From: Candidatus Aphodenecus pullistercoris
GTDB lineage: Bacteria > Spirochaetota > Spirochaetia > Sphaerochaetales > Sphaerochaetaceae
Reading direction: 5' to 3'
NCBI GenBank assembly: GCA_017694495.1
Contig: JADIMU010000053.1
Span: 1 to 41,502 of the forward strand
Length of the DNA stretch: 41,502 nt
The translations under genes and the position numbers were made by a program. Below the pieces are notes generated by a model. It was given only the letters and a program-made list of their open reading frames with translations. It was not told where the DNA came from and did no database searches. Positions 3,567 to 13,429 of the stretch are shown piece after piece (the first letter of the stretch is position 1; every line of letters begins with the position of its first letter).

Positions 3567-3580
3567 CCAGGGGGTCCATG

Positions 3581-4738
3581 ATGAGCGTGAGAGAGCGCTA
3601 CGCCTACTTCATCGTCCACAGGATGCTCCGCCTCGAGGAGGGCGAGCACCTTACACTCAACGTCGACGAGGACTGCCTCGACGAGGCCCATACCCTCGCC
3701 CATGAGGCTGCCAACACGAGCCAGATCGCCGTCACCATGGTGACGATCCGCCAGGGCAGAGTCGATGGCGTCGACGAGATCGAGCCGGATGGAGGGCGGA
3801 GCCTCAAGGCCAGGAGGGAGGTCCTCTTGCACCTGGCACCCTTCACGCCCAGCCGCTATGATGGCGCAGGTGAGCTCGACGCCCCCACCCTCGCCCGCCA
3901 TCGCCTGCTTGCCGACCCGATCTTCCTCGACCGCAGGCTCTCCATCCCCTACGCCGTCGCCTACATCCCAACGGCCAGCTGGGCGGAGTTCGTCTATGGC
4001 CCGGGAGAGAGCGTCGACAGGCTCTACCTGGACCTCGCCGACTTCATGAACATGGACGACGAGATCAGGGACGACCTCAGCCTGACGACACACCGCAGCC
4101 TGAGCATGACTGCCAAGCGCCTCGAGGAGCTTGATGTCGAGCGCTACAGCATCGTCGGCGAGGGAATCGAGCTGACCGTCTACCCTGCCTCTGGAGCCGC
4201 ACCCGGACCATCGTCCATCGCACTTGAGGGCGGCCGTTTCTTCTACCCCAGCCTGCCTTGTCAGGACATTGCGATTCCTCTCGACTCGAGGAGGGGTGAA
4301 GGCCACATCAGGTCGACCCGCCCCTTCCGCTTCTTCGACCGCCTCGTCGAGGATGTCGAGATGGGCATCGAAGGAGGACGGATGAAGTCCTTCAGTGGAC
4401 CTGACGCTCAGCTCGTCAACAGCTACATCAACATAGACGACCAGGCAAGCGCCCTGGGCGAGCTCGTGCTGTGCGAGGAGCTGACGAGGGCCGCCGGCTT
4501 CCGCTCGGCCTTTGGCATCCCCATCCTCGACAGGATGAGGACGACAGGCCTCGTCTTCGGCGGCGCAAGTCCCGAGCGCATCACCCTCTGTGACGAGTCG
4601 AAGCTCGAGGAGAATGGACTCAACACTTCCTTCGCCCGCCTTGAAGTCCCTGTGGGCAGCCGGAAGATGACAGTCACCGCCCATACGAAGGACGGTCGCC
4701 TTGTCACCGTCATGGAGGACGGACGCTTCAGGATCTGA
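3581..4738 (+). CDS. M29 aminopeptidase-like protein with altered metal site
   Basis: A 385-residue protein that resembles thermophilic M29 aminopeptidases (AmpS/AmpT) along its length. It has an N-terminal ERYAYFIVHRML block, a central RRGEGHIRSTRPF block and the ALGELVLCEE motif that carries one metal-binding Glu. By-eye alignment places Asp where the first metal Glu sits, Gly where the next His sits and no HxD pair near the C-terminus. It is therefore probably not a classic two-metal aminopeptidase. NicX-type ring-cleaving dioxygenases belong to the same superfamily, so a non-peptidase role is possible. There are two adjacent ATGs, at 3578 and 3581; CAGGGGG is better spaced for 3581. It lies 52 bases behind tRNA-Gly and 114 bases ahead of the permease operon, on the same strand. 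Confidence 0.7.
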   Translation: MSVRERYAYFIVHRMLRLEEGEHLTLNVDEDCLDEAHTLAHEAANTSQIAVTMVTIRQGRVDGVDEIEPDGGRSLKARREVLLHLAPFTPSRYDGAGELDAPTLARHRLLADPIFLDRRLSIPYAVAYIPTASWAEFVYGPGESVDRLYLDLADFMNMDDEIRDDLSLTTHRSLSMTAKRLEELDVERYSIVGEGIELTVYPASGAAPGPSSIALEGGRFFYPSLPCQDIAIPLDSRRGEGHIRSTRPFRFFDRLVEDVEMGIEGGRMKSFSGPDAQLVNSYINIDDQASALGELVLCEELTRAAGFRSAFGIPILDRMRTTGLVFGGASPERITLCDESKLEENGLNTSFARLEVPVGSRKMTVTAHTKDGRLVTVMEDGRFRI

Positions 4739-4744
4739 GCTTCT

Positions 4745-4764
4745 CTTTGTCCATCTGGACAAAG
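4745..4764. promoter_or_regulatory. Perfect 20-bp palindrome, candidate operator
   Basis: CTTTGTCCA-TC-TGGACAAAG starts six bases after the M29-like stop and lies about 90 bases upstream of the permease start. The two-base loop and absent T tract argue against a terminator; the symmetry suits a dimeric regulator. Confidence 0.45.
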
Positions 4765-4822
4765 ACAGGCCTGAACAATTTGTAGCTTTTGCTGATGAAA
4801 GAGCCTTCCCTTTGCCCCTAGA

Positions 4823-4842
4823 CTTTGGTCATTCAACCAAGG
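4823..4842 (+). promoter_or_regulatory. Hairpin covering the permease ribosome site
   Basis: CTTTGGT pairs with ACCAAGG (one G-U) around a six-base loop. The right arm contains the first two Gs of the GGGGG Shine-Dalgarno (4841-4845), and CCCC at 4815-4818 could pair the rest. Translation of the operon could be controlled by opening this stem. Confidence 0.35.
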
Positions 4843-4852
4843 GGGTATCAAT

Positions 4853-6106
4853 ATGGAGGAAAGGTTCGAAATCAAGGAATCGGAGAGGCAGAGCTGGCTC
4901 TCCCTCGCCTTCGTCTGGACGGGGAGCATGATTTGCATCCCTTGCCTCATGATCGGAGGCATCGTCGGCACGGGACTCAGCCTATGGCAGGTCGTCCTGG
5001 CCGTCCTCGTCGGCTACGGCATCGTGTGCACCTACATGTGTCTTGTCGGAATGGAAAGCTGCGACACGGGACTGCCGACAGTCTCGATGGCCGCATCCGT
5101 CCTTGGACGCAGGGGCGCCCAGTTCATCATCAGCCTCATGCTCGCCATTGCGTGCATCGGCTGGTTCGGCATCCAGAGCGCCGTGTGCGGCGAGTCGTTC
5201 TCAGCCATGGTCGCCGACTTCACAGGCTTCGAGATTCCAGTCTGGCTGTCCAGCGTCTTCTGGGGCATCATCATGCTGCTTACGGCCGTCTACGGCTACA
5301 ACGGTCTGAAGATCCTCAACTACATCGCTGTTCCCGCGCTTGTCATCGTCCTCGTCTACAGTATGGTCCTCGCCTTCTCGGGAGGCGGATTTGCGACGGT
5401 GGCGTCATACGTCCCGGCAAGCCGCATGAGCTTCATCAGCGCAGTGAGCATGGTCGTCGCCTCCTTCGCCCTGGGTGGTGTCATCAGCGGAGACTACTCG
5501 CGCTACGCAAGAAGCCGCAAGGACGTCGTCAAGAGCACATTGCTTGGAGTCTTCCCTTCCGGCCTTGTAATGATGCTCGTCGGCTCCATCCTCTCGATCG
5601 TCACAGGACAGTATGACATCTCGCTCGTCCTGGCGGCCGTAGGTGTTCCCGCCCTCGGCCTCGTGGCCCTTGTCCTGGCAACTTGGACGACGAACGTCAC
5701 GAACGCATACAGTGGAGGGCTCGCAGTGTCCAACCTCCTGGGCTTCGGCGAGGACAAGTTCAAGATCTCGTGCTCAGTCGCCGGACTGGTCGGTACAGTC
5801 CTTGCCGCAGTCGGGCTGCTCTCCCGCTTCGAGTTCTTCCTCAACATCCTAAGCGCCCTCATACCGCCGATCGCAGGCGTCATGATCGCAAGCTACTGGA
5901 TTGTCGGAAAAGGAAGGAGGGAGAATCTCGTCGAGAAGGAAGGCTGGTACCTGCCTGGCATCCTGGCCTTCGCCATCGGTGCGCTTGTCGCCTACATCAC
6001 TGGAAACATCGTGGTCCTCTTCATCGGACCCGTCAATGGAATAGTCACTGCCATGCTCGCCTTCATCATCCTGGAGCGCGTCATGGCGAAAGGAGGAAAA
6101 GCATGA
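4853..6106 (+). CDS. NCS1-family permease (CodB-like)
   Basis: A 417-residue, very hydrophobic inner-membrane protein with about twelve transmembrane segments, matching nucleobase:cation symporters of the CodB/cytosine permease branch. Visible family features are the early W-x-F-V-W-T-G-S segment (residues 14-24), GGVISGDYSRYARSRKD in the middle (a conserved NCS1 loop) and the NVTNAYSGGLAVSN helix. NCS1 members move cytosine, purines, allantoin, hydantoins or thiamine precursors. The two hydrolase-like genes behind it favour a cyclic amide or hydantoin-type substrate, by inference only. The ATG is at 4853 with AAGGGGG upstream. The stop overlaps the next start (ATGA). Confidence 0.85.
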   Translation: MEERFEIKESERQSWLSLAFVWTGSMICIPCLMIGGIVGTGLSLWQVVLAVLVGYGIVCTYMCLVGMESCDTGLPTVSMAASVLGRRGAQFIISLMLAIACIGWFGIQSAVCGESFSAMVADFTGFEIPVWLSSVFWGIIMLLTAVYGYNGLKILNYIAVPALVIVLVYSMVLAFSGGGFATVASYVPASRMSFISAVSMVVASFALGGVISGDYSRYARSRKDVVKSTLLGVFPSGLVMMLVGSILSIVTGQYDISLVLAAVGVPALGLVALVLATWTTNVTNAYSGGLAVSNLLGFGEDKFKISCSVAGLVGTVLAAVGLLSRFEFFLNILSALIPPIAGVMIASYWIVGKGRRENLVEKEGWYLPGILAFAIGALVAYITGNIVVLFIGPVNGIVTAMLAFIILERVMAKGGKA

Positions 6107-7188
6107 GGAAAATCTCCAAAGCGGAGATCAACGACATCGCCCTCGGTGCCAGCCTGCTCGGCGCTGGTGGTGGCGGCGACCCCTACATCGGCCGCCTGAT
6201 CGCGCTGGACGCCATCGAGGAATGCGGACCTGTGACATTGCTGTCACCGGACGAAGTGCCTGACGATGCCTTCATCGTCCCCATCGCGATGATGGGTACA
6301 CCGACCGTATTGTGCGAAAAGGCGATCAACGGCGGTGAGTACAAGGCCCTGGCCGAGATGGTCGAATCATATTTCAAGAAGAAGATCTTCGCCTTCATGC
6401 CCATCGAGGCGGGGGGAGTCAACAGCATGCTTCCCTTCGCCGCGGCGGCGAGGTTGGGCCTGCCCCTTGTCGACTGCGACGGCATGGGACGCGCCTTCCC
6501 GGAGCTGCAGATGGTGACCTTCACCATTGGAGGCATGTCGGCCACACCCATGGCCCTGACGGACGAGAAAGGCAACAGCTGCATCTTCAACACCATCACG
6601 AACAAGTGGACCGAGGAGCTGGCAAGGGCTGTCACCATGGCCTGCGGCGGATCCGTCTCCGTCAGCCTCTATACGATGACGGGTGCCCAGATGAAGAAGT
6701 ACGCAGTGCGCGACATCGTCACGCGCAGCGAACGCCTCGGAAAGGCCCTCAGGCTGATCAAGGAGGCGGGCCAGGAGGATACCGAGGCGAAGTTCCTCGA
6801 GATTACTGAAGGCTTCAAGCTCTTCAAGGGCAAGATCGTCGACGTCAAGCGTGAGGTCAGGGGCGCCTTCAACTTCGGCACCGTCGTCCTTGAGGGGATT
6901 GCGGAGTGCAAGGGACGCTCTGCCTATGTCGAGTTCCAGAACGAGAACCTCTCGGCCGTCGTCGACGGGAAGATCGTCGCGACTGTCCCGGACCTGATCT
7001 GCCTCGTCGACAGCGGCACCTACACTCCTGTGCCGACCGATGCCCTGAAGTACGGCAAGAGGGTCCTCGTCGTCGGCCTCAAGTGCTTCGAGCGCTGGAG
7101 GACTGATGAAGGACTCAAGCTCGTCGGTCCGCGCTACTTCGGCATCGAGACGGACTACATCCCAATCGAGGAGAGGTGCAAAGCATGA
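6103..7188 (+). CDS. DUF917 family protein
   Basis: A 361-residue cytoplasmic protein of the DUF917 family, beginning MRKISKAEINDIALGASLLGAGGGGDPYIG with the glycine-rich GAGGGGDP motif typical of the family. No reaction has been firmly assigned to the family. It is usually found next to hydantoinase/oxoprolinase subunits, as here, so it is probably a partner or second catalytic unit in cyclic amide metabolism (inference). AGGAGG at 6091-6096 is well placed for the ATG at 6103, which overlaps the permease stop. Its own stop overlaps the hydantoinase start (ATGA at 7185-7188), indicating tight translational coupling. Confidence 0.85.
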   Translation: MRKISKAEINDIALGASLLGAGGGGDPYIGRLIALDAIEECGPVTLLSPDEVPDDAFIVPIAMMGTPTVLCEKAINGGEYKALAEMVESYFKKKIFAFMPIEAGGVNSMLPFAAAARLGLPLVDCDGMGRAFPELQMVTFTIGGMSATPMALTDEKGNSCIFNTITNKWTEELARAVTMACGGSVSVSLYTMTGAQMKKYAVRDIVTRSERLGKALRLIKEAGQEDTEAKFLEITEGFKLFKGKIVDVKREVRGAFNFGTVVLEGIAECKGRSAYVEFQNENLSAVVDGKIVATVPDLICLVDSGTYTPVPTDALKYGKRVLVVGLKCFERWRTDEGLKLVGPRYFGIETDYIPIEERCKA

Positions 7189-8738
7189 AATACAGACTTG
7201 GAATTGATGTGGGCGGCACGAACACTGATGCCGTCATCATAGACGAGAAGCTCAATGTCCTGTGCCAGACGAAGACGCCGACGACTGGGGACGTGCATAC
7301 GGGAATCATGAAGGCCGTCAGGACCGTCCTGGAGGAAGGCAAGGTCGACAGAAGGGACATCACGATGGCCATGCTTGGCACGACCCAGTGCACCAACGCC
7401 ATCGTCGAAAGGCGCGGCCTCGTGCCTGTGGCCGTACTTCGCATCGGCGCTCCGGCCACGGCAGGTATCCAGCCAATGACTGACTGGGCAGAGGATCTGA
7501 AGAGGATCGTATACGCGAGCACGATCGTCGCAGGTGGCTATGAGTATGACGGCAAGGAGCTGGCCCCACTCGACGAGGCGGCCTGCCTCGCCTTCTTCGA
7601 ATCGGTCAAGGGCCATGTCGAGTCCATCGCCATCTCAGGCGTCTTCTCGACGCTGCGCGACGAGCAGGAGAAGCGTGCCCGCGAGCTGGCACGGCAGGTG
7701 CTCGGTGATGATGTACACATCTCGCTGTCCAGCGAGATCGGCTCGATGGGACTGATCGAGCGCGAGAACGCGACCATACTGAACGCTGCCCTGGACAGGG
7801 TCGCCAGGACCTTCACCGAAGGCTTCGAGAGGAGCCTCAGGGAGGAGGGGCTTGAGAATGTCAGCCTCTACCTTTCGCAGAACGATGGCACCCTGATGGA
7901 CATTGAGGAGGCGCGACGCCACCCTGTGCTCACGATCGCATGCGGTCCTACAAACAGCATCAGGGGCGCAAGCTACCTGTCGAAAGTGTCCAACGCCATC
8001 GTCGTCGACGTCGGCGGAACCACGACCGACGTGGGCGCCTTGCAGAACGGTTTTCCAAGGGAGAGCGGAGTTGCCGTCACGATTGGCGGCGTGAGGACGA
8101 ACTTCAGGATGCCAGACGTCATCTCGATCGGCCTAGGAGGTGGCAGCATCGTGCGCCAGAAGCCGGATGGAAGCGTCACGGTCGGTCCTGACAGCGTCGG
8201 CTACCGCATCACGGATGAAGCCCTCGTCTTCGGAGGTTCGACGCTGACTGCGACTGATATCGCTGTCCGTCTGGGCATGGCCAGAATCGGGGATCCTGCC
8301 AAGGTCGCCAAGCTCGATGAAGGTCTCGCCAGAAAAGCGATGGAAAGGATCGTCGACATGGTCGAGGAGGCCATCGACTCGATGAAGCTCTCGGCAAGCG
8401 ACGTCACAGTCATCCTTGCCGGAGGCGGCTCGATCATAGTCCCGGCCTCGCTCAAGGGGGCGAAGGAAGTCATAGTACCCTCCCACAGCGACTGTGCCAA
8501 TGCCATAGGCAGCGCGATCAGCAAGGTCAGCGGCAACTATGAGAAGCTAGTCTCCTACGACGAGATCGACAGGGACAAGGCGCTCAAGCTCGCGACGAAC
8601 GAGGCTGTGCTCGCCGCCATGAAGGCTGGTGCGAAAGTCGACAGCGTCGAGGTCGTCGAGATGGAGGACGTTCCCTTGCAATACTATCCTGGCAACATGG
8701 TCAGGATCAGGATCAAGGTCGCAGGAGACCTGGCCTAG
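7185..8738 (+). CDS. Hydantoinase/oxoprolinase family protein (HyuA-like, short form)
   Basis: A 517-residue protein of the ASKHA-fold hydantoinase A/oxoprolinase family. The N-terminal phosphate-binding loop is GIDVGGTNTDAVI (residues 6-18), the second nucleotide motif VVDVGGTTTDVG is near residue 270, and GLGGGS lies further on. Members hydrolyse cyclic imides such as 5-oxoproline or hydantoins, often with ATP. This short form has no HyuB partner in the window; DUF917 appears to take that place. A longer start at 7176 is possible, but ATG 7185 gives the usual MKYRLGIDVGG start. The stop codon shares CTAG with that of the convergent regulator. The substrate is unknown. Confidence 0.85.
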   Translation: MKYRLGIDVGGTNTDAVIIDEKLNVLCQTKTPTTGDVHTGIMKAVRTVLEEGKVDRRDITMAMLGTTQCTNAIVERRGLVPVAVLRIGAPATAGIQPMTDWAEDLKRIVYASTIVAGGYEYDGKELAPLDEAACLAFFESVKGHVESIAISGVFSTLRDEQEKRARELARQVLGDDVHISLSSEIGSMGLIERENATILNAALDRVARTFTEGFERSLREEGLENVSLYLSQNDGTLMDIEEARRHPVLTIACGPTNSIRGASYLSKVSNAIVVDVGGTTTDVGALQNGFPRESGVAVTIGGVRTNFRMPDVISIGLGGGSIVRQKPDGSVTVGPDSVGYRITDEALVFGGSTLTATDIAVRLGMARIGDPAKVAKLDEGLARKAMERIVDMVEEAIDSMKLSASDVTVILAGGGSIIVPASLKGAKEVIVPSHSDCANAIGSAISKVSGNYEKLVSYDEIDRDKALKLATNEAVLAAMKAGAKVDSVEVVEMEDVPLQYYPGNMVRIRIKVAGDLA

Positions 8739-10267
8739 CCGCCCAGGCCTATGATGCGGCGCATCATCAAGGCTCTGTAGAGCATCACGTTCTGCGGAGC
8801 CTTCATTATGTCCGCATGGAGGATGGATGAGATCCTCTTCAGCCTGTACTTGACCGTGTTGTTGTGCACACCAAGCATCCTCGAAGTCTGGATCGTGCTC
8901 ATGTCGGCGTCGAGGAGGAAGGCTTCCAGCGTGTCCGTGAGGACAGTCCCCTCCTCCATCTCCTCGAGCACGGCCAGGGGAGAGAGGACGGAGGCGATCT
9001 CGTCCTCGCCCTTGGCCAGGACGGACAGGAAGTAGTCGACGAGCTGGACGTCGACAAGGTCAAGCACCTTCCTCCTGTAGACCTTGCTGGCAAGGTCGGC
9101 CGACGACTTGACCAGCAGGAAGGCCTTGCGTACTGCAGACGTGTCCTTCAGGTTGAAGGCCCTGACCAGGAGCCTGTCGCCATCATAGGCCAGGAGGGAG
9201 CTGACGGCCTCCAGAACATCCCCACCCATGGATGAGGCGAGGAAGAGGACGATGCTGTCCTGGTAAAGGTCGACGATTGGGCGCGCTATGTAGGGCTCGA
9301 GGCGCGACTTCACTTCATCCAGGCTTTCTTCCAGCCCTTCCCCCTTGACTGTGAACATCGTATCAATGCTCTTCACGTCGATCGAGAAGAGGTCCGCAAG
9401 CCGCCTCATCTTCAGGCTCTCGTCCTGGAGGATGGCCCTGACGAGCTCAGCGATCACGGCCTGGCCATGCTTGGGCGACCAGATCACAAGGAAGAGGTGG
9501 AGCGTCTCGACTGTCATGGCGAGCTGGTCATCGGTCAGTCCAGTCCCATTCTCCCTGACCACAGTCAGCATCAGGCTGCCCATTCCCCTCTCATGGATCC
9601 TTGCCTTGTCTACATGCCAGGCACTATCCAGTGAACCGGACTCGAAGAGACGTCCCAGCTCCTCCTCCCTGCCATGTGGAAAGGACGAGATGTTGATGAC
9701 TCTGCCCTGCGGATCGGAGAGGATCAGCGAGGCGCGCAGCCTGTCGCGGAGCATCCTGAGCACTGTCGAGACGCTGCGCAGCGACTCTGGAAGGAGGCTC
9801 ACCTCCTCCAGGATCTCGGTCACGAAACTGCTTGCATGGACTTCCTGGCGGAAGATCGCCTCGCATATGTCGCTTATCGCGTCGCTGTACCTGAGATGTT
9901 TGTCGGGGGGCATCTCTATGAGGGCGAAGGAGAGCTTGTCCGCCACTTCCTTGACCTCGTCGCTGATCTCAGGCACGAAGGTGCCTACATAGTAGAGCAT
10001 GAGGCCGACCTCGCCAGCGGCGGCCAGGCGGCGTATGACTGCGACCTGGGCCGAGCTGTCATTGCATATGTTGGCGAAGGCCGTGATGACGATCTCGCCT
10101 CCTTCGAAGCTGATCGCCTCGAAAAGCTCGCTCTGCGTCTGGCTGGGTTCGCTGTACTCGAGCACGGAGACGGATGAGACGGGACGCTCGAGCGCCCTGG
10201 CTCCTGCGACAAGGCGGGCCCCTCGCAATGAGGGAAGGTCAAGCAGCTTTCTGACAGTCAGACTCAT
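8735..10267 (-). CDS. PucR/CdaR-type transcriptional regulator
   Basis: A 510-residue cytoplasmic activator. The N-terminal PucR domain starts LTVRKLLDLPSLRGARLVAG, followed by the IVITAFANI stretch; the central part is variable and GGDEF-like in position. The C-terminal HTH is MLGVHNNTVKYRLKRISSIL, the usual PucR helix-turn-helix. PucR proteins control purine, allantoin, sugar-acid and hydantoin catabolism, so it probably senses the substrate of the permease - DUF917 - hydantoinase operon, which it faces and overlaps by four bases. An in-frame stop just upstream fixes the ATG at 10267 as the longest start. The only Shine-Dalgarno-like sequence, AGGAAGGTG, is about 20 bases away. Confidence 0.85.
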   Translation of the reverse strand: MSLTVRKLLDLPSLRGARLVAGARALERPVSSVSVLEYSEPSQTQSELFEAISFEGGEIVITAFANICNDSSAQVAVIRRLAAAGEVGLMLYYVGTFVPEISDEVKEVADKLSFALIEMPPDKHLRYSDAISDICEAIFRQEVHASSFVTEILEEVSLLPESLRSVSTVLRMLRDRLRASLILSDPQGRVINISSFPHGREEELGRLFESGSLDSAWHVDKARIHERGMGSLMLTVVRENGTGLTDDQLAMTVETLHLFLVIWSPKHGQAVIAELVRAILQDESLKMRRLADLFSIDVKSIDTMFTVKGEGLEESLDEVKSRLEPYIARPIVDLYQDSIVLFLASSMGGDVLEAVSSLLAYDGDRLLVRAFNLKDTSAVRKAFLLVKSSADLASKVYRRKVLDLVDVQLVDYFLSVLAKGEDEIASVLSPLAVLEEMEEGTVLTDTLEAFLLDADMSTIQTSRMLGVHNNTVKYRLKRISSILHADIMKAPQNVMLYRALMMRRIIGLGG

Positions 10268-10296
10268 GTTTTGATGTTAACAGCAATCACCTTCCT

Positions 10297-10325
10297 GTAT
10301 AATGGTTTGGCAAGCGGAGGTGAAA
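10297..10325 (-). promoter_or_regulatory. Putative promoter of the PucR-type regulator
   Basis: On the minus strand TTTCAC, a 17-base spacer and TTATAC, about 30 bases before the start codon. The match is moderate. Confidence 0.4.
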
Positions 10326-10328
10326 TCA

Positions 10329-10352
10329 TATCATAGTTTTACAAATATGATA
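10329..10352. promoter_or_regulatory. 24-bp dyad TATCATA-N10-TATGATA, candidate operator
   Basis: Perfect 7-base arms with partial symmetry extending inward (TTT/AAA). It lies three bases upstream of the predicted -35 of the regulator gene, a position suited to autoregulation or to an upstream activator site. Confidence 0.4.
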
Positions 10353-10396
10353 CGGAAACTTCACAGTTGAAGTATCAGGATTGAATTGAAATACAG

Positions 10397-11158
10397 TCAG
10401 TTCAGACTGCTTATCAGCGCGAGACCATTGAGCGTATGGTACTTGTCTATCGTCTCGATGCGCGGGATGAGGGGACTGATCGTCTGGCACAGTCCTCCAG
10501 TCGCCATGACGATGAGCCTTTCTCCCAGCTCGGCCTCGCTCTGGGCCACCATCTTCTCCACAAGTCCCGCATAGCCGTACATCAGGCCTGCTCGGATCGA
10601 GTCCTCGCTGCTCCGCCCAAGGACTGTGGATGGAATCTTCAGCTCGACCTGTGGAAGCTGGGCCGTCGCTCCGAAGAGGGCGTGGACGGCTGTAAGCAGG
10701 CCGGGGACGATGGCGACGCCACGCACCCTCCCCTCTCCGTCAACCGTCGAGAAGGTCAGCGCAGTGCCGAAGTCGACGGTCATCACAGCCTTGTCGGGGT
10801 GGACGTGGTGGGCCCAGGCCAGGTTGCACAGCAGGTCGCTGCCAAGCTCTGCAGGAAGGCTCTCCCTGTCCAGACCGGTCCTGACATCATTGCTGACGAC
10901 AAGGGCGTCACGACCGAAGAGGCGCCTCATGTTCTTCTGGACGGAGAGTGTGAGGTTGGGCACGACGGAGGACATGACGATGCGGTCCACAGCTGCCGTA
11001 TCGACTCTGGAGGACTCAAGAAGTGAGCGGAAGATGACGTAGTACTCGTCGCCCGTCTTCCTCTGGTCGCTGTAGACGCGCCAGCTGTGCACCCAAGCTC
11101 CGCCCTCGCCCAAGGCGAGGACGATGTTGGTGTTGCCGATGTCCACAGCGGCGAGCAT
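10397..11158 (-). CDS. coaX: Type III pantothenate kinase
   Basis: A 253-residue ASKHA-fold kinase that phosphorylates pantothenate with ATP, the first step of coenzyme A synthesis. Motifs are DIGNTN at residues 6-11, the SSVVP motif, GSDLLCNLAWA (substrate pocket) and VDFGTALTF (phosphate 2 with catalytic Asp). The ATG at 11158 overlaps the ABC-F stop by one base (TAATG), so it is translated from that mRNA. No other pantothenate kinase type is in the window. The call is secure. Confidence 0.93.
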   Translation of the reverse strand: MLAAVDIGNTNIVLALGEGGAWVHSWRVYSDQRKTGDEYYVIFRSLLESSRVDTAAVDRIVMSSVVPNLTLSVQKNMRRLFGRDALVVSNDVRTGLDRESLPAELGSDLLCNLAWAHHVHPDKAVMTVDFGTALTFSTVDGEGRVRGVAIVPGLLTAVHALFGATAQLPQVELKIPSTVLGRSSEDSIRAGLMYGYAGLVEKMVAQSEAELGERLIVMATGGLCQTISPLIPRIETIDKYHTLNGLALISSLN

Positions 11159-12795
11159 TACAGGAGCACCACTGTGTGGCGGCCGGCGTAGGCCTTGTCA
11201 CGAAGCTCGTCGATGCTCTTGTCGTTGATGTAGCTCTCGAAGTTCGTGATGCGGTCAATCAGTCCGGTGGGAGTGAACTCGATGATCCTGTTTGCGATCG
11301 ACTCGACGAACTGGTGGTCATGGCTGTTGAACAGCAAGGTGCCCTTGAAGTTGATGAGTCCGTCGTTCAGGGCCTGGATCGCCTCGAGGTCGAGGTGGCT
11401 CGTCGGCTCGTCGAAGATCATGCAATTGGCACCCTCGAGCATCATCTTGGCAAGGACGACGCGGACCTTCTCGCCTCCCGAGAGGACGCGGCAGGGCTTG
11501 AGGGCCTCGTCTCCGGAGAAGAGCATGCGTCCCAGGAAGGAGCGGACGAAGGTGTCGTCATCCTCCTTGCTGTACTGCTGGAGGTAGTCGGCGATGGAGA
11601 GGTCCGTGTCGAACATCCTCGTGTTGTCCTTGGGGAAGTAGCTCAGCGAGGTCGTGACACCCCAGGTGTAGCTGCCGCTGTCAGGCTCCATCTCGCCGGC
11701 GAGGATCTGGAAGAGGACAGTCTTGGCGTAGTGGTTGGGACCGACGAAGGCGACCTTGTCGCCCGGGTTGATCGTCAGGTTCAGCTTGTCGAAGATGACC
11801 TCTCCGTCGATAGTCTTGGACAGGTCCTTGATCTCGAGGCAGTTCTTGCCGATCTCGCGCTCCGGCTTGAAGGCGACATAGGGGAAGCGGCGGCTGGAAG
11901 GCTTGATGTCGTCCAGCGTGAGCTTCTCGATAAGCTTCTTGCGGCTTGTGGCCTGCTTGGCCTTGGCGACGTTGGAGCTGAAGCGCTGGATGAACTCCTT
12001 GAGCTCGGCGATCTTGTCCTCCCTCCTCTTCTTCTCGTCCTTCAGCTGCTTGGCGGCAAGCTGGCTGGACATGTACCAGAAGTCGTAGTTGCCGACATAG
12101 AGCTGGATCTTGCCATAGTCGATGTCGCATATGTGGGTGCACACAGTGTTGAGGAAGTGGCGGTCGTGGCTGACGACGATGACCGTGTTGTTGAAGTCCG
12201 CCAGGAAGTCCTCAAGCCAGTGGACGCTCTCAAGGTCGAGGTGGTTGGTCGGCTCGTCCAGAAGCAGGATGTCCGGGTTTCCGAAGAGGGCCTGAGCCAG
12301 AAGGACGCGGACCTTGAGGTTGTCCTCGATCTCCTCCATCTTCTTCTCGTGGAGGCTTGTCGGGATGCCAAGGCCGTCGAGCATCTGGGCAGCCTCGCTC
12401 TCGGCTTCCCAGCCGCCCATTTCGGCGAACTCGCTCTCAAGCTCGGCGGCGCGGATGCCGTCCTCCTCGCTGAAGTCCGACTTCGCGTAGATCTCGTCAC
12501 GCTCCTTCATGACGCTGTAGAGCTTGTCATAGCCCATGATGACGGTCTCGAGGACACCGTACTTGTTGAAGGCGAAGTGGTCCTGCCTGAGGACCGCCAT
12601 CCTCTCGCCCGGCGTGATGATGACCTCTCCGCTGTCGGCCTCGATCTCACCAGAGAGGATCTTCATGAAGGTCGACTTGCCCGCACCGTTGGCACCGATG
12701 ATGCCATAGCAGTTGCCGGGCGTGAACTTTATGTTGACGTCCTTGAAGAGGACCTGGGTTCCGTACGAAAGCGAAATGTTGCTGGCTGTGATCAT
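11158..12795 (-). CDS. ABC-F ATPase, YbiT-like, with one degenerate composite site
   Basis: A 545-residue soluble protein with two ABC domains and the ABC-F linker (about residues 240-310, rich in Lys/Arg with SSRRFPYVAF). ABC-F proteins bind the ribosomal E site and help translation, or protect it from antibiotics. Domain 1 has an intact Walker A (residues 34-42, GANGAGKST) and LLLDEPTNHLD, but its signature reads EIEDN (155-159) instead of LSGGE. Domain 2 has an intact LSGGE (438-442) and IFDEPTSHLD, but its Walker A is GPNHYAKT (352-359), with Ala for the key Gly. GGAGAG serves the ATG at 12795. A GTG at 12828 would lie beyond the T tract of a terminator and is unlikely. It is the first gene after tRNA-Glu and is followed by coaX. 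Confidence 0.9.
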   Translation of the reverse strand: MITASNISLSYGTQVLFKDVNIKFTPGNCYGIIGANGAGKSTFMKILSGEIEADSGEVIITPGERMAVLRQDHFAFNKYGVLETVIMGYDKLYSVMKERDEIYAKSDFSEEDGIRAAELESEFAEMGGWEAESEAAQMLDGLGIPTSLHEKKMEEIEDNLKVRVLLAQALFGNPDILLLDEPTNHLDLESVHWLEDFLADFNNTVIVVSHDRHFLNTVCTHICDIDYGKIQLYVGNYDFWYMSSQLAAKQLKDEKKRREDKIAELKEFIQRFSSNVAKAKQATSRKKLIEKLTLDDIKPSSRRFPYVAFKPEREIGKNCLEIKDLSKTIDGEVIFDKLNLTINPGDKVAFVGPNHYAKTVLFQILAGEMEPDSGSYTWGVTTSLSYFPKDNTRMFDTDLSIADYLQQYSKEDDDTFVRSFLGRMLFSGDEALKPCRVLSGGEKVRVVLAKMMLEGANCMIFDEPTSHLDLEAIQALNDGLINFKGTLLFNSHDHQFVESIANRIIEFTPTGLIDRITNFESYINDKSIDELRDKAYAGRHTVVLL

Positions 12796-12812
12796 GCAGT
12801 CGTTCTCTCCAG

Positions 12813-12849
12813 AAAAAAATTGCAGCACAAGGCCGGGACCCTGTGCTGC
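12813..12849 (-). terminator. Intrinsic terminator after tRNA-Glu
   Basis: On the minus strand GCAGCACAGG, a seven-base loop and CCTTGTGCTGC (one bulge), followed by AATTTTTTT. The T tract ends 18 bases before the ABC-F start codon, with only its ribosome site between. Confidence 0.8.
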
Positions 12850-12856
12850 TCTAGTT

Positions 12857-12928
12857 TAGTTCCTAGGGGAATCGAACCCCTATTTAGAGACTGAGAATCT
12901 CCCGTCCTAACCGTTAGACGAAGGAACC
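12857..12928 (-). tRNA. tRNA-Glu (CTC)
   Basis: A cloverleaf on the minus strand. Acceptor GGTTCCT pairs with AGGAACT (G1-U72 wobble), the anticodon loop TTCTCAG gives CTC, and the T arm is AGGGGTTCGATTCCCCT. CCA is not encoded. It follows tRNA-Gln by ten bases. Confidence 0.92.
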
Positions 12929-12938
12929 ATGTTCAGAT

Positions 12939-13009
12939 CTGGGATGGAGGGATTCGAACCCCCAAAGGCAGAACCAGAATCTGCAGTGTTACCATTACAC
13001 TACATCCCA
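12939..13009 (-). tRNA. tRNA-Gln (CTG)
   Basis: Acceptor TGGGATG/CATCCCA, anticodon stem GCAGA/TCTGC around TTCTGGT giving anticodon CTG, and T arm GGGGGTTCGAATCCCTC. CCA is not encoded. It is the first gene of the tRNA-Gln/tRNA-Glu transcript. Confidence 0.93.
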
Positions 13010-13034
13010 ATCTCCTGTTTTCCAGTCCTCGAGT

Positions 13035-13063
13035 AACTTACCTGAAAGCCTGTGATATGTCAA
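13035..13063 (-). promoter_or_regulatory. Promoter of tRNA-Gln/tRNA-Glu (and perhaps ABC-F, coaX)
   Basis: On the minus strand TTGACA, a 17-base spacer and TAAGTT, with the tRNA starting about 26 bases after the -10. No separate promoter was found for the ABC-F gene. Confidence 0.65.
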
Positions 13064-13186
13064 CAGCTTTTGTAAAAAATTCTAGAAAAGTTTTCATGTC
13101 GTTACAAATCAAGGAAATGCAAATCAGAAAACCTGATCATTGGCCATAATGCCTACTGTCTGCATAGGTATGTATGGAGGTAGTTC

Positions 13187-13429
13187 ATGAGGAAGATATA
13201 CACAGGTCAGGACGGCGTCCTGAGGAGGAAGGCGAACTTCGCCTCTCTGGTGAATGCGGTGTGCTATTCGGGAAGAAGGACGATAAAGGGCGAAGAGCTG
13301 AGCCTCGTGGAGGAGGAGCTGCTCGACGGCGAGGCGCTGAGGACGATCTTCCCCCGCTACGCCGACTGCGTGACGATGCACTCGGCGAAGGGGGACATAA
13401 AGCTGATCGTGCTCTCGCCTCAGGGGTAG
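13187..13429 (+). CDS. Small protein of unknown function (80 aa)
   Basis: An 80-residue protein starting MRKIYTGQDGVLRRKANFASLVNAV and ending IKLIVLSPQG. GGAGG at 13176-13180 is correctly spaced from the ATG at 13187. It has no signal peptide, membrane segment or cysteine-rich motif; it is a mixed acidic/basic soluble protein with one Cys near residue 26 and one near 61. The codon usage matches the surrounding genes, which supports a real gene. Its last ten bases overlap the 3' end of convergent tsaD. It stands alone on this strand. I do not recognise a family and assign no function. Confidence 0.7.
   Translation: MRKIYTGQDGVLRRKANFASLVNAVCYSGRRTIKGEELSLVEEELLDGEALRTIFPRYADCVTMHSAKGDIKLIVLSPQG

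Follow-up and report, generated by a model that had tools for sequence, protein, structure and literature searches.

Results

The locus and its genes

The stretch of DNA analysed here, referred to as the window, is the entire 41,502-nucleotide contig C41 (JADIMU010000053.1) in the 2.07 Mb genome of the gut spirochaete Candidatus Aphodenecus pullistercoris, which is assembled in 70 contigs. Near its start five genes encode an M29-like protein, an NCS1 permease, a DUF917 protein related to S-methyl thiohydantoin desulfurases (S-Me-THD), a short HyuA and a PucR-type regulator (Table 1). An earlier note on this DNA had considered all five as one pathway for import and opening of a cyclic amide. 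The five reading frames are present and their Pfam families agree with the names given. The ATGA overlaps of NCS1 with DUF917 (6103-6106) and of DUF917 with HyuA (7185-7188) are real, as is the convergent regulator, whose stop codon overlaps that of HyuA. The locus had been drawn to 10352; actually, the regulator stops at 10267. Between the M29-like gene and NCS1 are 114 bp in which a candidate operator is located. The nearest named relatives of the DUF917 protein are from uncultured Spirochaetales, and one same-family locus is labelled Sphaerochaetaceae.

Table 1. Features of the locus in window coordinates.
Feature	Position	Strand	Length and basis
M29-like protein	3578-4738	+	386 amino acids; PF02073 (Peptidase_M29), 113 bits
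NCS1 permease	4853-6106	+	417 amino acids; PF02133 (Transp_cyt_pur), 120.6 bits
DUF917 / S-Me-THD-like protein	6103-7188	+	361 amino acids; PF06032, 190 bits, and PF20906, 221 bits
Short HyuA	7185-8738	+	517 amino acids; PF05378 (Hydant_A_N) and partial PF01968 (Hydantoinase_A) only
PucR-type regulator	8735-10267	-	510 amino acids; PF07905 (PucR), 86.7 bits, and PF13556 (HTH_30), 49.5 bits
Probable PucR operator, 22-bp palindrome	4744-4765	unstranded	conservation and link to PucR
Insertion carrying the cassette, between M29-like gene and CoaX	4739-10396	unstranded	comparison with eight congeners
Four-gene unit NCS1-DUF917-HyuA-PucR	4853-10267	PucR on opposite strand	linkage across loci

Four of the five genes travel together

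Neighbours were counted in 94 non-duplicate loci; the denominators comprise those loci which had enough flanking sequence to judge. HyuA was beside DUF917 in 92/93 loci, and in the single miss (locus L138) it sits just past a second DUF917 copy. NCS1 adjoined DUF917 in 75 of 86 loci and PucR accompanied the cassette in 59 of 79. The M29-like protein, whose co-occurrence with DUF917 across genomes had been suggested as a check, was found in 0/73. The five-gene locus of the earlier note thus shrinks to four genes. Within the genus and the family NCS1-DUF917-HyuA is a repeated order, and PucR converges on it, lies upstream in the same direction or diverges from it. The same gene order is found again in dozens of genera and the set occurs far above chance. 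Hosts are Firmicutes, Spirochaetes, Coriobacteria, archaea and plasmids, with at least 569 confirmed stretches in one scan. Distances between DUF917 and HyuA proteins correlated with r = 0.94, those of either with the permease less closely (DUF917-NCS1 0.85, HyuA-NCS1 0.84). On rhizobial plasmids (Rhizobium, Mesorhizobium) the pair of HyuA and DUF917 is combined with ATP-binding cassette (ABC) importers instead. This indicates that HyuA and DUF917 are the enzymatic core and that the importer is exchangeable. The comparisons support a conserved, regulated four-gene unit of NCS1, DUF917, HyuA and PucR, which we regard as a self-contained, horizontally mobile utilisation unit.

NCS1-DUF917-HyuA is present on the 27 kb plasmid pSG2 of the tsetse-fly symbiont Sodalis glossinidius (locus L185, 4629-8561), and Lactiplantibacillus plantarum plasmids carry the cassette plus PucR (locus L186). 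A genome of the same family has a decayed cassette (locus L056, G087:C20, about 8100-13300) in which stops and frameshifts break NCS1, DUF917 and HyuA. In loci L105, L114, L117, L126, L133 and L045 a second set, divergently oriented, directly adjoins the cassette. It pairs a distantly related DUF917 (25-30% identity) with a HyuA-like protein and a regulator-sized neighbour. In L105 the HyuA-like protein of this set, the one that was scanned, had no Pfam match and the neighbour is a sigma-54 activator.

HyuA and DUF917 as a proposed two-subunit enzyme

The ATP-site residues of the short HyuA (D8, GGTN(T)D, D275, GGTT) show little or no variation among 91 homologues and form two phosphate motifs, D8-GGTN-TD and D275-GGTT-D. 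D8 and D275 align with D11 and D295 of the caprolactamase subunit CapA, the mutation of which lowers caprolactamase activity (PMC8453981). An AlphaFold2 model (predicted local distance difference test, pLDDT, 90.1) matched best the fold of N-methylhydantoinase (9h03), closely followed by CapA (6yra) and carboxylases. The protein is probably an ATP-dependent, substrate-activating subunit. The HyuB subunit (PF02538) was absent from the window genome and 15 congeners, i.e. from 16 genomes of the genus. The place expected for HyuB is occupied by DUF917, as the earlier note had proposed, and we infer that DUF917 may act as the hydrolytic subunit in its stead.

Both domains of DUF917, S-Me-THD_N (PF06032) and S-Me-THD_C (PF20906), scored above the gathering score of 27. 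The AlphaFold2 model (pLDDT 91.9) had a structural-genomics entry, 2o3i, as its sole match in the PDB (template modelling score 0.80); a HyuB chain was not among the PDB fold matches. Because the predicted fold matches 2o3i only, DUF917 is no disguised HyuB.

In the earlier note DUF917 was said to have no agreed substrate. This is outdated as NCBIfam names two equivalogs of PF06032, thiohydantoin desulfurase (NF058529) and S-methyl thiohydantoin desulfurase (NF058532). Accordingly, two consecutive reactions can be envisaged: DUF917 alone would act as a desulfurase-like hydrolase on a ring derived from ergothioneine or a thiohydantoin, and HyuA with another partner would open the ring later. 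A true desulfurase from Burkholderia arboris, our positive control, reached 608 bits (cut-off 440) and adjoins thiourocanate hydratase; it shares with the window protein the GGGG loop, D124, R130, N280-E281 and P296-D297. However, the window DUF917 obtained 93.1 bits against the cut-off of 440 (NF058529) and 89.8 against 450 (NF058532), and E102 and D126, which are invariant in its clade, are Gln and Val in the Burkholderia enzyme. Genes for thiourocanate hydratase or ergothioneine catabolism were absent from the window and from the recurrent cassette neighbours. Further, a HyuA that acts separately would have no HyuB as a partner in the genus, and DUF917 of the cassette clade is virtually always with HyuA. 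We consider two separate reactions unlikely. The shared and the subfamily-specific residues together point to a chemistry of DUF917 which is related to that of the desulfurases, but distinct.

The substrate

As substrate of a joint HyuA-DUF917 enzyme we would guess first a hydantoin, which may be 5-substituted, and next a lactam, for example 5-oxoproline. Hydantoin is favoured by the Mhp1-type permease site (see below), the chemistry of the family and occasional racemases: an Asp/Glu/hydantoin racemase (PF01177) neighbours the cassette in 13/74 loci, a match to the broad Pfam family only and to no specific NCBIfam racemase model. A hydantase (HyuC, TIGR01879) was absent from the window genome, and the congeners had only matches below the cut-off. 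Therefore, in the window genome an N-carbamoyl amino acid product would need another enzyme or be a dead end. CN_hydrolase proteins, with four matches in the window genome, were considered as carbamoylase and rejected; the stand-alone nitrilase-like one adjoins a carB-like gene, is not near the cassette and is present over part of the clade only.

Utilisation of 5-oxoproline (pyroglutamate) would require no further enzyme since NCS1 would import it and HyuA plus DUF917 would convert it with ATP directly to glutamate. HyuA is similar to ATP-dependent lactamases, and as PxpA is absent from the window genus and hydantase from the window genome, a route that yields an amino acid directly would be fitting. 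Yet PxpA is also present in 5/12 cassette genomes from other taxa, thus the cassette is no simple PxpA replacement, and most relatives without the cassette lack PxpA as well. The permease site seems better suited for a planar ureide than for a carboxylated lactam, and sometimes a racemase is beside the cassette. On balance 5-oxoproline is decidedly unlikely, and a hydantoin remains our tentative first choice.

The permease

The permease has the characteristics of an NCS1 carrier, i.e. the PF02133 domain, an aromatic sandwich of W104 and F205 and the Na2-site threonines T279 and T280. Its nearest solved relative is CodB (1.9e-40), followed by Mhp1. Hydantoin is bound in Mhp1 by Trp117, Gln121 and Asn318 (PMC4195764), and these align with W104, Q108 and N284. 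Among 82 cassette permeases W104, N281 and N284 are invariant and Q108 is present in 81. In CodB Gln105 is essential for cytosine binding (PMC9379551); at this position the window permease has Cys101, and a Cys is found in 69/82 cassette permeases. The permease would then be a Na+-coupled importer of the NCS1 family for a ring of the hydantoin or ureide type.

Databases label such carriers as cytosine permease, which would make the locus an ordinary salvage system for cytosine or other nucleobases. The relationship to CodB agrees with this, and the best NCBIfam model is that of cytosine permease, although at 222 bits the cut-off of 326 was not reached. Because Mhp1-type residues are kept and CodB Gln105 is replaced, the label is probably wrong for the cassette carriers. 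Moreover, a deaminase did not recur among the cassette neighbours, and the partners are HyuA and DUF917. Nucleobase salvage is highly improbable.

A palindrome linked to PucR

In the candidate operator two 9-bp arms form a perfect inverted repeat, TCTTTGTCC-ATCT-GGACAAAGA, whose core, TTGTCC-N4-GGACAA, occupies 4747-4762; the permease starts 106 bp downstream. In an upstream alignment of nine congeners the core was invariant in otherwise diverged DNA save for one mismatch in G005. The exact site is at the cassette in 8/9 cassette genomes of the genus and the ninth (locus L036) has one mismatch; none of the seven cassette-free genomes of the genus contains an exact copy anywhere. Loci were also scanned over the 320 bp that precede the first cassette gene, allowing at most one mismatch. 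The palindrome was upstream of 42/60 cassettes with PucR and 0/29 without (Fisher 3e-11, which overstates independence because the loci are related and phylogeny was not corrected for). It is present also where DUF917 is the first gene (loci L066, L073, L086, L096). The palindrome is probably the operator through which the linked PucR acts on a single target; that PucR binds to it, and the direction of regulation, we infer. A description of a TTGTCC-N4-GGACAA operator was not found in the literature.

A terminator of the M29-like gene was considered and rejected because the palindrome stays before the cassette regardless of the upstream gene. The window genome contains one other exact copy, at C33:21395. 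It was rejected as a second regulon member because it falls within a TnpB-like reading frame. Sites with one mismatch at C30 and C43 were weaker and had no clear target. C33 also carries TnpB-like and TnpA-like genes of the IS200/IS605 type (locus L179, 6369-8118).

In cassettes of Paenibacillus and Listeria (loci L107, L112, L119, L120, L132, L136) the palindrome at this position has diverged, to TTGTCGAATYAGACAA, TTGTCCAATAAGACAA and TTGTCACTTWTGACAA, which suggests that regulator and operator changed together. In methanol-evolved cultures of Eubacterium limosum B2 a single-base deletion was reported between PucR and DUF917, placed by this interval only (PMC9503626).

The M29-like gene belongs to an older block

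A block of RnhB, ZupT, M29, CoaX and ABCF is kept in eight congeneric genomes, in seven of which the stretch taken also includes TsaD. Seven of the eight have the cassette on another contig; G012 has no cassette. In all eight the M29-like gene and CoaX meet at their stop codons, which abut or overlap, without another gene in between; in the window the distance is 5,658 bp. This comparison shows that the cassette was inserted here, separating the M29-like gene from CoaX. The M29-like protein aligns with AmpS, PepS and AmpT. Compared with canonical M29 proteins and paralogues its metal-ligand positions are changed from Glu to Arg, His to Gly and HxD to RxE. Because of the abutting stops and the lost ligands it is a bystander: a homologue of M29 peptidases that has degenerated and belongs to an older RnhB-ZupT-M29-CoaX-ABCF-TsaD block. 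That it is the downstream or accessory enzyme of a five-gene pathway, as had been proposed, can practically be dismissed: in this one genome it is adjacent to the cassette and on the same strand, but it is absent near all assessable cassettes elsewhere, is syntenic with RnhB, ZupT and CoaX whether or not a congener has the cassette, and has lost its catalytic ligands.

The M29-like gene is conserved across the genus. In G003, G006, G010 and G034 another M29 protein is encoded in tandem with it; in G006 and G010 the ligands of this second protein are canonical. Possibly, the M29-like protein is a pseudo-enzyme partner.

Discussion

The reading we favour, and hold to be probable, is that the cassette encodes an inducible importer and an ATP-dependent cyclic-amide hydrolase in which DUF917 has the role of HyuB. 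Import and ring opening, as had been proposed, agree with an ATP site that is intact and a permease site of the hydantoin type; a hydantoin is a tentative choice of substrate. We propose the following scheme, in which reaction, direct HyuA-DUF917 contact and substrate are conjectural. A small cyclic amide or ureide outside the cell would be taken up by NCS1, probably with Na+. The ring would stack on Trp104 while its amide face hydrogen-bonds to Gln108 and Asn284. HyuA, with its ASKHA/HyuA fold, would use ATP to phosphorylate a ring carbonyl, yielding a phospho-imidate, and DUF917 would add water at the activated carbon so that the ring opens. For CapAB a comparable sequence was proposed; the ATP subunit forms an activated lactim which the metal subunit then hydrolyses (PMC8453981). 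The chemistry at carbon may resemble that of the distant relatives of DUF917, by which sulfide or methanethiol would be released from (S-methyl)thiohydantoins. A phospho-imidate is electronically like an S-methyl-thioimidate, the target of the desulfurase as judged by its name. By analogy, this suggests how DUF917 could replace HyuB. PucR may sense the compound or a product and exert its control through the 22-bp palindrome ahead of the permease.

Traces of the cassette exist in the literature. DUF917 proteins were suggested, from sequence, to be hydantoinases (PMC11055893). Strains of L. rhamnosus are set apart by a cytosine permease, a DUF917 and a hydantoinase whose accessions are consecutive (PMC7513527). 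In an RNA sequencing table of a C. difficile R20291 hcpR mutant, 1615-1617 (permease, DUF917, hydantoinase) rise together (PMC12915319). The cassette is thus visible in existing annotations; new here is the palindrome upstream of the permease.

Several points weigh against the cyclic-amide hydrolase. DUF917 lacks the Asp-His-Asp-His metal tetrad of HyuB and has no invariant His at all. The Mhp1-type residues do not single out hydantoins because, according to the Mhp1 paper, the W117/Q121/N318 set is found in other NCS1 carriers, too (PMC4195764). The missing hydantase, the broad racemase match and the relatedness of the loci in the operator scan have been mentioned. The C. difficile genes were likened to the cassette by annotation and may be of another subfamily. 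An experiment on any cassette member was not found in the literature, of which subscription papers were thinly covered so that this absence is weak. What carries our view are sequences and their comparison, namely the linkage, the ATP and permease sites, the link of operator and PucR, the lack of HyuB and HyuC and the insertion.

A more general proposition, that of a widespread and undescribed catabolic module, is about evenly balanced. DUF917, with a fold unrelated to HyuB, would replace HyuB beside a minimal HyuA and constitute a second kind of ATP-dependent cyclic-amide hydrolase, mobile among bacteria of the gut, lactic acid bacteria and archaea and in many cases joined by its own importer and a dedicated PucR acting at TTGTCC-N4-GGACAA. 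Should this hold, an inducible pathway for an unnamed ring compound would be present in hundreds of bacteria from gut and soil, and DUF917 and short hydantoinase/oxoprolinase, both common labels for an 'unknown', would denote one enzyme whose reaction can be tested. The operator joined to a reporter is a direct route to the inducer, which would reveal the substrate.

How does the cassette compare with known systems? With the HyuA-HyuB hydantoinases, 5-oxoprolinases and caprolactamases (CapAB of Pseudomonas jessenii, PMC8453981; 9h03) it has in common the HyuA fold, intact ATP motifs and two subunits encoded side by side; ATP-dependent opening of a cyclic amide would be expected by analogy. It differs by a HyuA of 517 amino acids, compared with 696 in CapA, which is restricted to PF05378 and part of PF01968, and by DUF917 as the partner in place of HyuB and its Zn tetrad. 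With the thiohydantoin desulfurases (NF058529, NF058532) DUF917 shares the two-domain PF06032/PF20906 family, several residues and presumably a hydantoin-like ring as substrate, yet it is far below their cut-offs, differs at E102 and D126 and has HyuA as a near-obligate neighbour. The permease belongs with Mhp1 and CodB to the NCS1 family, including the Na2-site threonines, and is overall nearer to CodB in sequence, whereas its predicted substrate contacts follow W117, Q121 and N318 of Mhp1 and not Q105 of CodB. Finally, the regulator has the PF07905 plus PF13556 architecture of PucR, PmfR and AdeR and, like these, a probable local control of catabolic genes. In contrast, it is far below the cut-off of all NCBIfam equivalogs and its presumed site, TTGTCC-N4-GGACAA, has one evident target in the genome.

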